DNA of 6,855 bases from a bacterium (lineage in GTDB: Bacteria > SM23-31 > JAUVVT01): contig JAUWXV010000201.1 of the NCBI GenBank assembly GCA_030616165.1, positions 1 through 6,855 on the forward strand. The letters run 5' to 3'. The notes beneath the pieces were generated by a model. The model was not told where the DNA came from, made no database searches, and saw nothing but the letters and a program-made list of their open reading frames with translations. This document shows positions 1,887 to 6,855 of this stretch, one piece after another. Within the stretch, counting starts at the first letter, position 1. The number at the start of each line of letters is the position of its first letter. The position numbers and the translations under genes are program-made.

Positions 1887-2699
1887 ATGCAATGGCAATC
1901 TAATTGTGTAGCTTGTAATACCAAATTGGATAATCCAATTATATCAAATGTAGGAATACTTTGTAGAGAATGTTCAAGGCAAGGCTTATTTAGAAAAAGA
2001 TTAATAATTACTGGTATTACAAGAATGAAAGATGATAGGGTATGTGTTAGTGGAATAGATCCAGAAACTTGGAGATTTGTTAGACCAGTTTATCCTATCG
2101 GAGGATATCTAACAAGAGATTTCATCATGATTGGAACAAGAAGGTCTGTTATACATTTTGACGTTGTTGAAATGGAATTTACAAATTATAAGCCAGATCA
2201 AATACATCATACTGAAGATTGGCTTATAAACGAACGATTTACACCTAAATATATAGGCCATTACAAAGAGGAAAATATAATAAAAATCTTAAGATATATG
2301 GCAGTTTCAAATTTAGAAGAAGCAATTGTTGCTCAAGATAGTTCTTTATTTATTGTAGATGTAAAAAGAATGACGCGTATTTGGCATGAGCATTATGAAA
2401 AGTTTAAAGTTCGTATTAATTTCGAGGATAAAAGTGGTAATTTATTTGAAGGAATACCAGCAACTGATTTACTACTTTTAGCGAAAGTTAGATGGTGTGT
2501 AGAAAAAAAAAGAATAAACTATGCACAAGAAATGGTTCGTAAGTTTAATGGTAATCAACATAAATATATTAGAATTAGTTTAACTCGATTATTTCGATGT
2601 CAATATTGGAAGCAAGTAACAGGGCTAATAACAGTACCAGATTTCTTTGATGGTGAGTCTTTTGCAGATTATGAAAGACGTTTAGGAGGACCAGCATGA
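1887..2699 (+). CDS. Zinc-ribbon dual-OB domain protein
   Basis: This 270-residue soluble protein is the first gene of a three-gene cassette. It opens with a four-cysteine zinc ribbon (CVAC at 7-10, CREC at 26-29). Next comes a segment with RVCVSGIDPETWRFVRPV (about 51-68), a pattern I associate with the dual-OB family often found beside DUF488 genes. Other matching landmarks are HHTEDW (107-112), GIPATD (189-194) and a C-terminal RLFRCQYWKQVTGL (about 234-247). OB folds usually bind nucleic acids or nucleotides, so a sensing or substrate-binding role is an inference. No catalytic motif is visible and no signal peptide or membrane segment is present, so it should be cytoplasmic. The ATG at 1887 has no SD, only an AT-rich leader. 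The stop overlaps the next start (ATGA at 2696). Base composition is low in GC. The family call rests on memory of motifs, not on a search. Confidence 0.75.
   Translation: MQWQSNCVACNTKLDNPIISNVGILCRECSRQGLFRKRLIITGITRMKDDRVCVSGIDPETWRFVRPVYPIGGYLTRDFIMIGTRRSVIHFDVVEMEFTNYKPDQIHHTEDWLINERFTPKYIGHYKEENIIKILRYMAVSNLEEAIVAQDSSLFIVDVKRMTRIWHEHYEKFKVRINFEDKSGNLFEGIPATDLLLLAKVRWCVEKKRINYAQEMVRKFNGNQHKYIRISLTRLFRCQYWKQVTGLITVPDFFDGESFADYERRLGGPA
2684..2689 (+). promoter_or_regulatory. Perfect SD for the first DUF488 gene
   Basis: AGGAGG lies 6 bases before the ATG at 2696, within the last codons of the dual-OB gene. Together with the ATGA stop/start overlap, it indicates deliberate translational coupling, so the two proteins are probably made in a fixed ratio. 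Confidence 0.75.
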
Positions 2700-3178
2700 T
2701 TTATACAATTGGACATAGCAATCATACAATACATTACTTTATTGAAATTATAAAAGAATTTGGAATAGATACTATTGTTGAGTTACGCTCAGTACCTAAA
2801 AGTAAATATTTAAAACATTTTAATAAACCCAATTTGATAAATGAACTTAGTAAACATAATATTAAATATATTGATATGAGTAAATACCTTGGTGGACGAC
2901 CAGAAGATAAATCAGTTTTAAACATAGATAAAAAAATTGAATTAAATAAGATTGAGAGTAACAATTGGTATCAGGAAGCTATTGATAGATTAGTAAATAT
3001 TTCCAAAAAATCAAGAATAGCAATTATGTGTAGTGAAGAAGACCCAGCAAACTGTCATAGAGGATACATTATATCACATACTCTCTTAAATAGAGGTGAA
3101 GAAATTATACACATACGAGGGAATAAAATTCAAGAAAAGTCAAAATTTTATCACAGACAAATGGGGATAGAATTTTAA
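2696..3178 (+). CDS. DUF488 family protein, first copy
   Basis: This 160-residue cytoplasmic protein has the family's landmarks in order: TIGHSN at 4-9, then VELRSVPKSK (28-37) in the usual DVRxxPxS position, HFNK (41-44), YLGGRP (64-69), CSEE (112-115) and CHR (120-122). The acidic-Arg, Cys-x-Glu and Cys-His-Arg residues look like a conserved functional site, but I know of no firmly established activity for DUF488. One departure is Glu29 where most members have Asp. The gene overlaps the dual-OB gene by four bases at its start and its TAA shares one base with the next ATG (3178), so all three are one translational unit. It differs strongly from the second DUF488 gene, so they are not a recent duplication. 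Confidence 0.88.
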   Translation: MIYTIGHSNHTIHYFIEIIKEFGIDTIVELRSVPKSKYLKHFNKPNLINELSKHNIKYIDMSKYLGGRPEDKSVLNIDKKIELNKIESNNWYQEAIDRLVNISKKSRIAIMCSEEDPANCHRGYIISHTLLNRGEEIIHIRGNKIQEKSKFYHRQMGIEF

Positions 3179-3660
3179 TGATTAATATTTTTACAATTGG
3201 GGTATATGGTTATACAGAAAATGATTTTTTTCAAAAATTGATTAATTCAAAAATCGATACATTTTGTGATATTAGAAGAAGACGTGGTGTAAGAGGATCA
3301 AAGTACTCTTTTGTTAATAGTAAAAAATTACAAATGAAATTGGCAAAATTAGGAATAAATTATGTTCATTACATTGAGTTAGCTCCGAGCAACGAGGTTA
3401 GAGAAAAGCAAAAAGAGTTTGATAAATACCAAGGAGTTCAAAAAAGGAAAAGAATTGGACTGAACCAAGCGTTTGTTGAAGCCTATAAAAAGCAGAATTT
3501 AATTACTTTTGATCCTGACCATTTTTTAAGTTTTTTGGGTTCAAATGCAAAAAATGTAGCATTATTTTGTATTGAAAAAGAACCAAATGCATGCCATAGA
3601 TCATTAGTCGTTGAATATTTGCAAAAAATTTTGAAAGATTTAAAAGTTGTTCATTTATAA
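3178..3660 (+). CDS. DUF488 family protein, second divergent copy
   Basis: Also 160 residues and soluble, this is a DUF488 protein of a different subtype. It has TIGVYG (6-11) in place of TIGHS, an unbroken basic run CDIRRRRGVRGSKYSF (30-45) containing the Asp-Ile-Arg motif, a LAPS segment (68-71), CIEKEP (131-136) and ACHRSL (138-143). The arginine-rich loop beside the predicted functional Asp suggests binding to a nucleic acid or other polyanion, which is inference. It begins at the last base of the preceding stop codon; the purine-rich GGGGATAG upstream may act as its ribosome site. Pairing of two unlike members in one operon fits a heterodimer or division of labour. It is the last gene of the cassette; non-coding DNA follows. 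Confidence 0.87.
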   Translation: MINIFTIGVYGYTENDFFQKLINSKIDTFCDIRRRRGVRGSKYSFVNSKKLQMKLAKLGINYVHYIELAPSNEVREKQKEFDKYQGVQKRKRIGLNQAFVEAYKKQNLITFDPDHFLSFLGSNAKNVALFCIEKEPNACHRSLVVEYLQKILKDLKVVHL

Positions 3661-3710: not shown

Positions 3711-3753
3711 TATATTAAAAGAAAAATTTTATCTTACTGTTCCGAATAAACCG

Positions 3754-3781
3754 GTAGGACAGACATTCTTGTCTGTCCTGC
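3754..3781. repeat. Inverted repeat, dispersed REP/MITE-like element
   Basis: AGGACAGACA (3756-3765) and TGTCTGTCCT (3770-3779) are perfect 10-base complements around a TTCT loop. One G-T and one further G-C pair extend the stem to 12 bp. It is clearly richer in GC than its surroundings and sits between the DUF488 cassette and the lipoprotein gene. Palindromes of this wording (GGACAGACATTCTTGTCTGTCC and variants) are, as I recall, dispersed in many copies in some candidate-phylum genomes. No T-run follows, so it is not a standard intrinsic terminator, though it could still block or stabilise transcripts. No second copy lies in this window. Confidence 0.75.
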
Positions 3782-3813
3782 TTATTATTTACCATTACTT
3801 GGATTTTTTTAAG

Positions 3814-5001
3814 ATGAATTCTAATTGTTATTCTAAATATATTTATGTGATAAAATACTGTATTTTATTATTAACATTATTATTCGCTGTAAAATGTTCG
3901 GAAAATGATATAACATCAAATGATTCATATCCGCCCCTTTCCTTTTTTAAAGAAGCAGTTGTTCCGGATACACTTTATACTGTCACATCTGAAGATTTTC
4001 TGGTACAGGTCAAAACGGAAAAGAGCCTTTATAGTAATATAACTTATATTCTAATGAAGGCTTTTGATACTTCTTATGAATTACCCTCCTCAATAGATAC
4101 ACTCCACGACAATGCATACTTCGGAGACATCGTTCCTGGGGATGGGATATTCTCTCGTATAATAAATTCAGCACAAATAAAATCTAATACTGAAGAATGT
4201 ATTCTTGAATTTTCCACTCCGTTAGTTAATGAGATATTTCTTGATACAATTCTTTTTATAGAAGGGGAAAAAAATTTACCCCCTGTTATATCAAACCTGA
4301 TTCTTCCTAACACGGTATCTCTTGATAGCTCTGAATTGAAATTTTATATATTTTTGGATGTTATTGACCCCCAGGGTAAAGATGATATAAAAGAGGTAAA
4401 AGGCAAAGTCTATTATCCTTATTTTTCTGTTCCAAGCCTTGTTATAACCCTGAAACATTATGGAATACCTCCCGAGATAATTAAGGGGGAGAATAATTAT
4501 GTTTACATATTTCAGACGAATGATATGGCAAAAATGGGCACTGGGGAATATTCGATTCTATTTTATGCTCAGGATAATAAAGGAAACTTGAGCAACTCGT
4601 TAGTCGGTTCCATATATTTCTATTCTGATATTGAGAACCTTCCACCGGTGATTGAGTATGTTAATGCTCCCGATACTATTGAGACCACAACAGAAACCAT
4701 TCTTCTTGAGGCAATGGTTACAGATGTAAATGGAATAGGTGATATAGAAATTGTTTACTTTGATTCTTATCTGCCCGATGGGAATCCGGCAGAAGGAAAT
4801 CCATTTTATATGTATGATGATGGCAGTGAACTATCGTTACCGTGGGGTAACTCCGGAGATAAAATTAAAGGTGATGGAATTTATTCATGTGAAGTTACAG
4901 CCGATAATCCTGTCAAAGGAAATTATCTTTTTAGATTTTACGCTGTTGATAAAGTTCAAAATAAAAGTGAGCCTGTCGAACATACTATTGTTATAAGATG
5001 A
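3814..5001 (+). CDS. Putative lipoprotein with Ig-like domains
   Basis: From the ATG at 3814 the protein is 395 residues. Its N-terminus has a hydrophobic core (YCILLLTLLFAVK) ending at Cys28, followed by polar SEND, like a lipoprotein signal, although the residues before the Cys (AVK) are a loose lipobox. The rest is beta-rich. A first domain has PGDGIFS (108-114); a second begins at NLPPVIS (154-160) and a third at NLPPVIE (275-281), which ends with KGDGIYS (352-358) and an AVDKVQN...EPVEHTIVIR finish. The NLPPV linkers and GDGI(F/Y)S turns mark repeated Ig-like modules of the kind annotated as 'choice-of-anchor X'; two may be that type with another between. The frame is open back to a TTG inside the inverted repeat, which is not a credible start. 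GTG at 3847 would give a tighter lipoprotein signal and is a real alternative. The stop overlaps the next ATG by four bases. Expected location is the outer membrane or cell surface; a ligand cannot be inferred. Confidence 0.75.
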   Translation: MNSNCYSKYIYVIKYCILLLTLLFAVKCSENDITSNDSYPPLSFFKEAVVPDTLYTVTSEDFLVQVKTEKSLYSNITYILMKAFDTSYELPSSIDTLHDNAYFGDIVPGDGIFSRIINSAQIKSNTEECILEFSTPLVNEIFLDTILFIEGEKNLPPVISNLILPNTVSLDSSELKFYIFLDVIDPQGKDDIKEVKGKVYYPYFSVPSLVITLKHYGIPPEIIKGENNYVYIFQTNDMAKMGTGEYSILFYAQDNKGNLSNSLVGSIYFYSDIENLPPVIEYVNAPDTIETTTETILLEAMVTDVNGIGDIEIVYFDSYLPDGNPAEGNPFYMYDDGSELSLPWGNSGDKIKGDGIYSCEVTADNPVKGNYLFRFYAVDKVQNKSEPVEHTIVIR

Positions 5002-6503
5002 TTATTGAAAAATTGTTCAAAAATATTTTCCATAAAAATGAAGAAAAGATTCTTTTAATATTTTTATATTCATTATTAACCTTTTTTGAATTATCCAATT
5101 CTCAGCAAATCAACCCCCAAAATTTTCTTTTCAAACCTGCTTTTTCCAGAATTTCTGCAAATGATATAACCGATATAGTAATAAATGAAAACAGAATATG
5201 GTTTGGTACAGGCAAAGGTTTAAGCTATACAGATGATAATGGCTTGAATTTCTATAATTACTTGCATAAGGATGGAATGGGCAAAGGTGGAGTCTCTGCA
5301 ATCGGTGTTAAGGATGATGTGGTTTGGGTAGCAACCTCCATTGATTCGATTCTCGCTACTGGAAGTTTTGATGTCGGTGGTGGATTGAGTTATTCGTTGG
5401 ATAATGGAGAAACATGGAACTGGATTCCTCAGCCGGTAGATGCTCGTAATGATACTGCAGGTGGCAAAAAACCGACAACAACAGCGGTTCAAAATGTAAC
5501 GTATGATATTGCATTCGGGGATAATGAGATATGGATTGCCAGCTGGGGTGGGGGATTGAGAAAGTCCTCAGACATGGGAAAAACGTGGGAAACGGTTTCT
5601 CCGGATAAATTTCCTTTTGATGTCAGCGGAAATTTGAATCACCGTGCATTTTCGGTTATCTATGCAGAAAATGGTTTGTGGGTTGGGACGGCTGGTGGAA
5701 TCAATAAATCTACTGATGGTGGAAAAACATGGACAAATTATACTGCACAAAGCGGCAGTGGAATCTCTGGGAACTTCGTTGTCGCTCTTGGGAAGCAAAT
5801 TTTTCAGGATAAAAGCATTGTCTGGGCTGCTACATGGACGGCAGAAGGAGGAGAAGAATTCGATGCCGTTAGTAAAACCGATAATGGTGGATTGACCTGG
5901 GAGGTAACGTTAAAAGGGGAAAAGGCGCATAACTTTGCTTTTTACGAAAATGAGGTTTATGTTCCAACAGATAACGGACTATATAAATCAACAGATTTTG
6001 GAAAAACCTGGGCACTTTTCCCCCAGATAATAGATGAAACTGGTAATGCTGTTATGACAAATGAGATTTATTCGGTTGGATTTAAGGGTGGTGATTTGTG
6101 GGTTGGAACTGGTGATGGGCTTGCAAAAACTTCTGACAGTGGAAATTCATGGAAGATTTTCAGAGCATTCAAACCGACTGGAATAGAAGGCGAACCTTCA
6201 ACTTATGCTTATCCGAATCCATTTTCACCGTTAAGACATAATGTAATCGGAGATGATGGACATGTGAGGATTCAGTATAATGCGAAAAACAATACAAGGG
6301 TTACTATAAAAATTTTTGATTTTGGGATGAATCTGGTAAAAAATCTTGTTCAGGATAAGTCCAGAGCAGGCGGGGGAGATTATTATGAAGTATGGGATGG
6401 AAGAAATGAAAATGGAGACATCGTGGCAAATGGTGTCTATTTTTACCTCCTTGAACTTGAAGGTGAAAAAACTGCGTGGGGAAAGATTGTCGTTTTAAAT
6501 TAA
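4998..6503 (+). CDS. Secreted seven-bladed Asp-box beta-propeller with C-terminal sorting-type domain
   Basis: This 501-residue exported protein has a hydrophobic signal segment at about 18-31, with likely cleavage near SNS-QQ (33-37). Seven Asp-box-like repeats follow, of the form S-x-D-x-G-x-T-W: TDDNGLNF (78-85), SLDNGETW (133-140), SSDMGKTW (190-197), STDGGKTW (238-245), KTDNGGLTW (293-301), STDFGKTW (331-338) and TSDSGNSW (378-385). Each is preceded by a strand like LWVGTxxG, so a seven-bladed propeller is expected (BNR/sortilin/YCF48-like fold). Residues 400-501 form an Ig-like domain of FlgD/type IX sorting type: YPNPFSP (405-411), a WDGRNENG turn, then NGVYFYLLE and a final GKIVVLN. 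Such domains guide export and surface attachment through type IX secretion in Bacteroidetes-like bacteria. The ATG overlaps the lipoprotein stop (ATGA) with no clear SD, so coupling is likely. Propellers of this kind are mostly binding scaffolds; no glycosidase active site can be assigned here. Confidence 0.85.
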   Translation: MIIEKLFKNIFHKNEEKILLIFLYSLLTFFELSNSQQINPQNFLFKPAFSRISANDITDIVINENRIWFGTGKGLSYTDDNGLNFYNYLHKDGMGKGGVSAIGVKDDVVWVATSIDSILATGSFDVGGGLSYSLDNGETWNWIPQPVDARNDTAGGKKPTTTAVQNVTYDIAFGDNEIWIASWGGGLRKSSDMGKTWETVSPDKFPFDVSGNLNHRAFSVIYAENGLWVGTAGGINKSTDGGKTWTNYTAQSGSGISGNFVVALGKQIFQDKSIVWAATWTAEGGEEFDAVSKTDNGGLTWEVTLKGEKAHNFAFYENEVYVPTDNGLYKSTDFGKTWALFPQIIDETGNAVMTNEIYSVGFKGGDLWVGTGDGLAKTSDSGNSWKIFRAFKPTGIEGEPSTYAYPNPFSPLRHNVIGDDGHVRIQYNAKNNTRVTIKIFDFGMNLVKNLVQDKSRAGGGDYYEVWDGRNENGDIVANGVYFYLLELEGEKTAWGKIVVLN

Positions 6504-6532: not shown

Positions 6533-6855
6533 ATGAAAAAAATTCTAATCTTCATACTTTTATTATTTCTTAATATTGAAATTTGTTATTCTGTAGAGGG
6601 GGGATATGCAGGTTCATTTTTACGTATGGGTCTTGGCGCAAGACCGAAATCACTTGGAGGTGCTTTTGTTGCTGTTGCTGACGACCCTTATGCTGCATAT
6701 TATAACCCTGGAGGTCTTCCATTTTTAAATAAAGGATTTATTACCTTCTCTGCTATGTTTCTTTCTCTTGACAGGAAATTTAATTATGTCAGTTTTTCAC
6801 AAGGTATAAAACCTGCTGGTGGATTTTCAATAGGCTGGATGAACGTCGGAGTTGG
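6533..6855 (+). CDS. PorV/PorQ family outer-membrane protein, N-terminal part
   Basis: The gene runs off the window after 107 codons. A signal peptide is clear (MKKILIFILLLFLNIEICYS), with the mature protein starting near VEGGYAG. It continues with SFLRMGLGARPKSLGGAF, VAVADDPYAAYYNPGGL and FNYVSFSQG. This order (FLRMGxGARPxxxGGAFVAxADD, then YxNPxGL) is the hallmark of the PorV/PorQ (UPF0164-like) barrel family. PorV shuttles or releases cargo bearing a C-terminal sorting domain in type IX secretion; many relatives in other phyla are less well defined. The ATG at 6533 gives a standard signal peptide; another ATG at 6525 is out of frame. The gap from the propeller stop is 29 bases, with no SD. 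Lying directly after a gene whose product ends in a sorting-type domain, it could serve that protein. The complete length, expected to be several hundred residues, cannot be checked. Confidence 0.85.
   Translation, partial: MKKILIFILLLFLNIEICYSVEGGYAGSFLRMGLGARPKSLGGAFVAVADDPYAAYYNPGGLPFLNKGFITFSAMFLSLDRKFNYVSFSQGIKPAGGFSIGWMNVGV

Follow-up and report, generated by a model that had tools for sequence, protein, structure and literature searches.

The three-gene unit that we followed up in the window, i.e. the whole stretch of 6,855 nucleotides analysed here, is best read as a divergent variant of PDC-M45, an already catalogued candidate defence system. It encodes a dual-OB (DuOB) protein and two DUF488 proteins and is a real, conserved, mobile and defence-associated unit, as the preliminary description of this DNA had correctly spotted. 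The same description took the trio for an undescribed system, which cannot be upheld because PADLOC-DB 2.0.0 already holds it as PDC-M45 and Pfam already names both DuOB and DUF488. We propose, with a probability of about 0.58, that the trio is a laterally acquired anti-invader module that represents a divergent PDC-M45 subtype and works by the mechanism set out below. PDC-M45 belongs to a large set of computationally derived candidates; its parts are now tied to named folds, with intact active-site motifs in both enzymes.

Gene layout and family assignment

The positions of the open reading frames (Table 1), the 4-base overlap (ATGA) between the DuOB gene and the first DUF488 gene, the 1-base overlap (TAATG) between the two DUF488 genes and the Shine-Dalgarno sequence at the first junction are all as described previously, while no Shine-Dalgarno sequence is visible 5' of the DuOB gene, the first of the trio. 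The tight coupling exceeds chance: in all 20 further loci, the gene for the PDC-M45B-type DUF488 protein (M45B) precedes that for the PDC-M45C-type protein (M45C) on the same strand, with the two genes overlapping or at most 31 nt apart, and the DuOB gene lies upstream, downstream or, twice, divergently. The hairpin 3' of the trio is built around the palindrome GGACAGACATTCTTGTCTGTCC (window 3757-3778), which is a dispersed repeat with 95 copies in the source genome at up to two mismatches (control pattern, 0 copies), some of them arrayed at a spacing of 28-29 or 74 bp.

Table 1 Features of the trio and its 3' flank in the window
Feature	Position	Strand	Basis
DuOB gene (PDC-M45A-like), 270 aa	1887-2699	+	PF22557, PDC-M45A, AlphaFold2 model
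Zinc-ribbon-like codons C7xxC10...C26xxC29 in DuOB gene	1905-1973	+	Motif
AGGAGG Shine-Dalgarno, 6 nt ahead of ATG at 2696	2684-2689	+	Sequence
First DUF488 gene (PDC-M45B), 160 aa	2696-3178	+	PF04343, PDC-M45B, invariant residues, model
Second DUF488 gene (PDC-M45C), 160 aa	3178-3660	+	PF04343, PF22751, PDC-M45C, PDC-M19A, tree
Strong terminator-like hairpin 3' of trio	3753-3782	+	Core is the dispersed palindrome

The profile search that the preliminary description had proposed places the proteins in the Pfam families DuOB (PF22557, 59.7 bits against a cut-off of 27, covering profile positions 1-209 of 210) and DUF488 (PF04343, 61.0 bits for the first and 52.3 bits for the second DUF488 protein against a cut-off of 22.2). 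DUF488-N3a (PF22751, cut-off 27) was dropped as a name for both DUF488 proteins, since only the second scores above the cut-off (29.8 bits) and the first falls below it (19.5 bits). NCBIfam matches of the trio proteins (pelota and others) were far under cut-off and were set aside, and sequence searches, single or profile, returned no convincing relative of solved structure for any of the three.

Among the models of PADLOC-DB 2.0.0, the first DUF488 protein matches PDC-M45B (PDLC04657) with 139.5 bits (E = 2.6e-41) and the second matches PDC-M45C (PDLC04658) with 56.1 bits (E = 8e-16), while the match of the DuOB protein to PDC-M45A (PDLC04653) is weak (17.1 bits, E = 8e-4). The adjacency of three genes that is expected of PDC-M45 is present in the window. 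That PDC-M45 is this trio follows from the Agrobacterium homologues, which match the M45A, M45B and M45C models with E-values of 2e-88, 4e-84 and 5e-73, respectively. The second DUF488 protein also matches PDC-M19A, a little above its PDC-M45C score (65.8 bits, E = 1e-18); both DUF488 proteins, at 160 aa, align to M19A only from position 150 of 294 (PDLC04505) and lack its N-terminal part of about 150 positions. PMC12988326 credits the PDC systems to a guilt-by-embedding preprint (Payne et al. 2024). In the literature searched, we found no mention of PDC-M45 or of DUF488 together with a dual OB, and no experiment on the trio.

Conservation, mobility and genomic neighbourhood

When DuOB was sought by its family model, it was found in 17 of 392 genomes of the phylum to which a Pirellulales locus (L003) belongs and, in a second phylum, in 4 of 195 genomes, while none was found outside the window's own genome among 41 genomes, or among 6 of the window's phylum. 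The full trio, with both DUF488 genes beside DuOB, is present in 18 of the 22 DuOB-bearing genomes; in three of the remaining four, the contig ends close to DuOB (one of them still carries M45B), and in the fourth (G626) DuOB has no DUF488 gene in view. The three genes are thus neighbours across phyla, and no shared metabolic pathway adjoins them, so that neither of the two observations that the preliminary description had named as counting against its reading was made. Carriers known by name are Rhodothermus marinus DSM 4252, Agrobacterium tumefaciens 1D1108 and Allochromatium tepidum NZ. Trios are also found on plasmids and on IMG/VR contigs (L090, L095-L100, L108); the latter were recovered with DUF488 profiles, DuOB proteins varying too much for a profile scan, and scans of viral contigs with single window proteins gave no match.

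Several trios adjoin known immune systems. The Agrobacterium trio on pAt1D1108a adjoins a CBASS operon, the Allochromatium trio on pAt1 adjoins csm6, csx16 and cas1, and the R. marinus trio on pRMAR01 adjoins type III CRISPR-Cas genes. In G618 (L046 5949-10874), the trio has the order DUF488-DUF488-DuOB, and genes for TIR-APAZ and a short Argonaute come immediately after DuOB on its strand; in G599 (L052 4300-10821), genes for TIR-TM, HsdM and HsdS directly follow the trio on the same strand, again next to DuOB, as if the trio formed part of a type I restriction locus. In Klebsiella, a trio of the DUF4326 type (see below) adjoins a NotI restriction-modification pair. At a threshold of 1e-10, 173 PADLOC models matched among 111 neighbour proteins versus 20 among 106 control proteins from the same genomes, counts that are of models rather than proteins and overstate the difference, since methyltransferase models are redundant. 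Because of this redundancy we trust only the direction of the difference, and the neighbours scanned individually carry the argument: 5-6 of 20 match defence models, spread over 3 of 10 loci, and these matches include a generic HerA-like protein (L056) of a kind also matched in controls. In the Pfam tally, integrase, N6-methylase, resolvase and TIR families lead among neighbours, and glycosyltransferases and housekeeping families lead among controls. The few matches of single neighbours indicate that not every trio lies in a recognisable island. The proposal of a role in defence is thus strengthened by context, i.e. by a trio that is conserved across phyla and adjoins known immune systems, with CBASS, CRISPR, Argonaute and restriction neighbours found at some trios.

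In the window, the order of genes is rhomboid, OmpW-like, trio, Ig, BNR and PorV. These neighbours are ordinary surface and secretion genes, and no defence island lies within the whole 6,855-nt contig, which weighs against the defence reading. The window trio is an insertion, because a class-mate (G004, L087) has the flanking genes in the order rhomboid-BNR-Ig-PorV without the trio, with nothing between the rhomboid and BNR genes, and because the GC3 of the trio (15-19%) is lower than that of its neighbours (25-31%). In G001, a member of the window's family, the OmpW-like gene has a small open reading frame and a TonB-receptor-like gene after it. We also note that the protein encoded at window positions 4998-6503 combines BNR repeats with a sorting-like domain at its C-terminus (weak matches to CHU_C, FlgD_ig and PorZ) and that positions 6533-6855 encode the start of a PorV-like protein, which suggests type IX secretion in this lineage.

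Folds, motifs and phylogeny of the three proteins

The window DuOB protein carries a C-x2-C-x15-C-x2-C motif within its first 36 residues (segment aa 7-29), followed by the dual-OB domain (aa 37-246). The zinc-ribbon motif and the OB domain that the preliminary description had recognised are both present, but the motif is peculiar to this copy: it occurs in 1 of 27 DuOB proteins compared, and since the 26 others lack it we rejected it as a hallmark of PDC-M45. The segment is modelled with low confidence (pLDDT about 60). In Rhodovastum, a small DUF3268 zinc-finger gene (L007 7021-7227) overlaps the last part of the trio and is a possible split counterpart of the fused ribbon, suggesting that the trio may repeatedly acquire zinc modules as accessories. 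In the trio of G228, the DuOB gene (L015 1400-2400) has an in-frame TAG, so that this copy may be decaying.

The AlphaFold2 model of the window DuOB protein (pLDDT 83.1) gave Foldseek matches to Teb1, TEBP-alpha, POT1 and RPA, and also to HIN-200 DNA sensors, with E-values of 7e-5 to 1e-3, and VIA-align matches with modest Z-scores from 6.5 to 4, among them LEF-3 (Z 6.5) and TEBP-alpha (Z 5.0). Although the Z-scores are modest, these matches concur on tandem-OB proteins that bind single-stranded DNA, which the modelled DuOB fold resembles, and they lend weight to the earlier suggestion of a partner that would bind nucleic acid.

The Cys-Glu and Cys-His-Arg motifs noticed earlier are present in both DUF488 proteins, and their exact forms can now be given as C-x-E-x2-P-x2-C-H-R in the first and C-x-E-x5-C-H-R, found family-wide, in the second. 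The first protein has R31-S32-x-P34-x-S36 and C112-x-E114-x2-P117-x2-C120-H121-R122, and the second D31-x-R33 and C131-x-E133-x5-C139-H140-R141. Invariant residues are G6, R31, S32, P34, S36, Y58, G66, C112, P117, C120, H121 and R122 in 22 M45B proteins and D31, R33, C131, E133, C139, H140 and R141 in 20 M45C proteins, and the Cys-loop C-x-E...C-H-R is invariant or nearly so across the family. Since the window proteins retain all of these invariant residues, both DUF488 proteins would be expected to be active. The model of the first DUF488 protein (pLDDT 87.4) is Rossmannoid; the nearest structure to the DUF488 model is diphthine synthase (Z 9.5, 107 residues, rmsd 2.9), and its Foldseek list contains PTP-like proteins, with no match below 1e-3. 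In this model the Cys-loop runs between the strand 108-112 and the helix 121-132, with C112 at the end of the strand and R122 at the start of the helix, a predicted geometry that matches rhodanese/PTP-type Cys-loop enzymes. DNA-end processing was reportedly predicted by Burroughs and Aravind in 2023 for enzymes of the DUF488 clade in conflict systems.

In the tree, M45B and M45C fall on two separate sides (support 99/98), marking them as distinct and old paralogues, and the second DUF488 protein groups with all M45C sequences. Within M45C it belongs to a five-member clade (99/99) with the proteins of R. marinus, G228, G427 and G599, while the first DUF488 protein sits on a very long branch (1.97) and its position inside M45B is unsure.

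Possible function and relation to known systems

We suggest the following mechanism for the anti-invader module. The dual-OB protein, with its added zinc ribbon, would bind single-stranded stretches or ends that lie exposed on the DNA of an invading phage or plasmid and would recruit the two non-redundant DUF488 enzymes with their rhodanese/phosphatase-like fold. Their Cys-loop would then modify or trim the terminus in what may be a phosphate or sugar-phosphate reaction, and the altered terminus would either block replication or repair of the invader DNA or mark this DNA for partner systems, for instance type III CRISPR, short Argonaute or restriction. A defence activity of the trio is likely from its context, and DuOB probably recognises single-stranded DNA or ends, as its modelled fold suggests; that the substrate of the DUF488 enzymes is a nucleic-acid end and not a free nucleotide is put forward tentatively. 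It is tempting to speculate further that a telomere-protein-like dual-OB sensor detects invader DNA through ends that are free or single-stranded and that paired enzymes of the rhodanese/phosphatase fold inactivate this DNA by a reaction at its terminus, either independently or in addition to CRISPR, Argonaute or restriction, with the second enzyme slot taken by DUF488 or SLOG-DUF4326, a fuller picture that we consider rather doubtful.

As a first alternative, the trio could be a repair or detoxification module rather than an immune one, in which DuOB would locate damage or adducts on single-stranded DNA or RNA and the DUF488 proteins would clean ends or adducts as a mobile stress-survival trait. 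On Enterobacteriaceae plasmids, a solo M45C-like DUF488 gene lies between uvrA and frmR with formaldehyde-detoxification genes beside it (L045 6004-6435; L153 2504-2935), a setting that suggests damage and not phage and keeps the repair reading alive, and the DuOB model also resembles the replication and repair OB proteins RPA, RecO and RMI. The full trio, however, is repeatedly found next to CBASS, CRISPR, Argonaute and restriction genes and not next to repair or aldehyde genes, making repair unlikely as its function. The other alternative, a nucleotide-signal module in which DUF488 or DUF4326 would make or destroy a free nucleotide of the NAD/ADP-ribose type and DuOB would act as a sensor, leading to activation and to killing or pausing of the infected cell, draws on a variant of the trio in plasmids of Citrobacter, Klebsiella, Acinetobacter and Moraxella and on several isolate viral contigs. 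Here the gene after DuOB encodes an M45C-type DUF488 and the next one DUF4326 in place of M45B, and the DUF4326 protein of the Moraxella plasmid (L022 6097-6705) is fused to an N-terminal minimal SLOG domain (PF22565, 118.5 bits). DUF4326 has been assigned to the rhodanese-phosphatase superfamily (PMC9503650, PMC7824862) and is proposed, computationally, to act on ADP-ribose phosphates (PMC9503650), and genes for TIR domains adjoin two trios. DUF4326 has also been linked to DNA modification and restriction (PMC9503650, PMC7824862). Because the trio has no constant effector gene, DuOB looks like a nucleic-acid-binding protein and the ADP-ribose proposal is only computational, we regard the signalling alternative as quite improbable.

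An ordinary host cluster without joint function, in which the three genes are adjacent incidentally, would fit the cell-surface genes around the window trio and a source genome that has no other DUF488, but it is very improbable given that the genes keep their association from phylum to phylum, with two gene orders and on chromosomes, plasmids and viral contigs, and that the trio is missing from the same locus in the class-mate. A chance cluster is contradicted by the same conservation data and was rejected.

The window trio has parts like the three of PDC-M45 (an M45A-like dual-OB protein, DUF488 M45B and DUF488 M45C) in the same adjacency. It differs in that the M45A models barely detect its DuOB protein (17 bits), and they miss those of R. 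marinus and G148, in that its M45C protein belongs to the separate clade described above, in that its DuOB protein has an extra zinc ribbon, and in that its M45B protein, at 160 aa versus about 200, lacks most of the usual C-terminal extension. A divergent subtype of this kind suggests that present models under-count the system. The R. marinus DSM 4252 trio on pRMAR01 (L044) likewise has DuOB and M45B, and its M45C protein is 48% identical to that of the window and its sister in the tree; unlike the window, it has the order M45B-M45C-DuOB, CRISPR-Cas neighbours and no zinc ribbon. The plasmid variant DuOB-DUF488-DUF4326 resembles the window in having DuOB followed by an M45C-type DUF488, and differs in that DUF4326 replaces M45B; this exchange, with SLOG, connects the system with the ADP-ribose chemistry that has been proposed, an idea that thereby becomes testable. 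New with respect to the catalogued system are thus a divergent subtype scarcely seen by the M45A models, the fusion of a zinc ribbon in one copy, and the exchange of DUF488 for DUF4326, once fused to SLOG.
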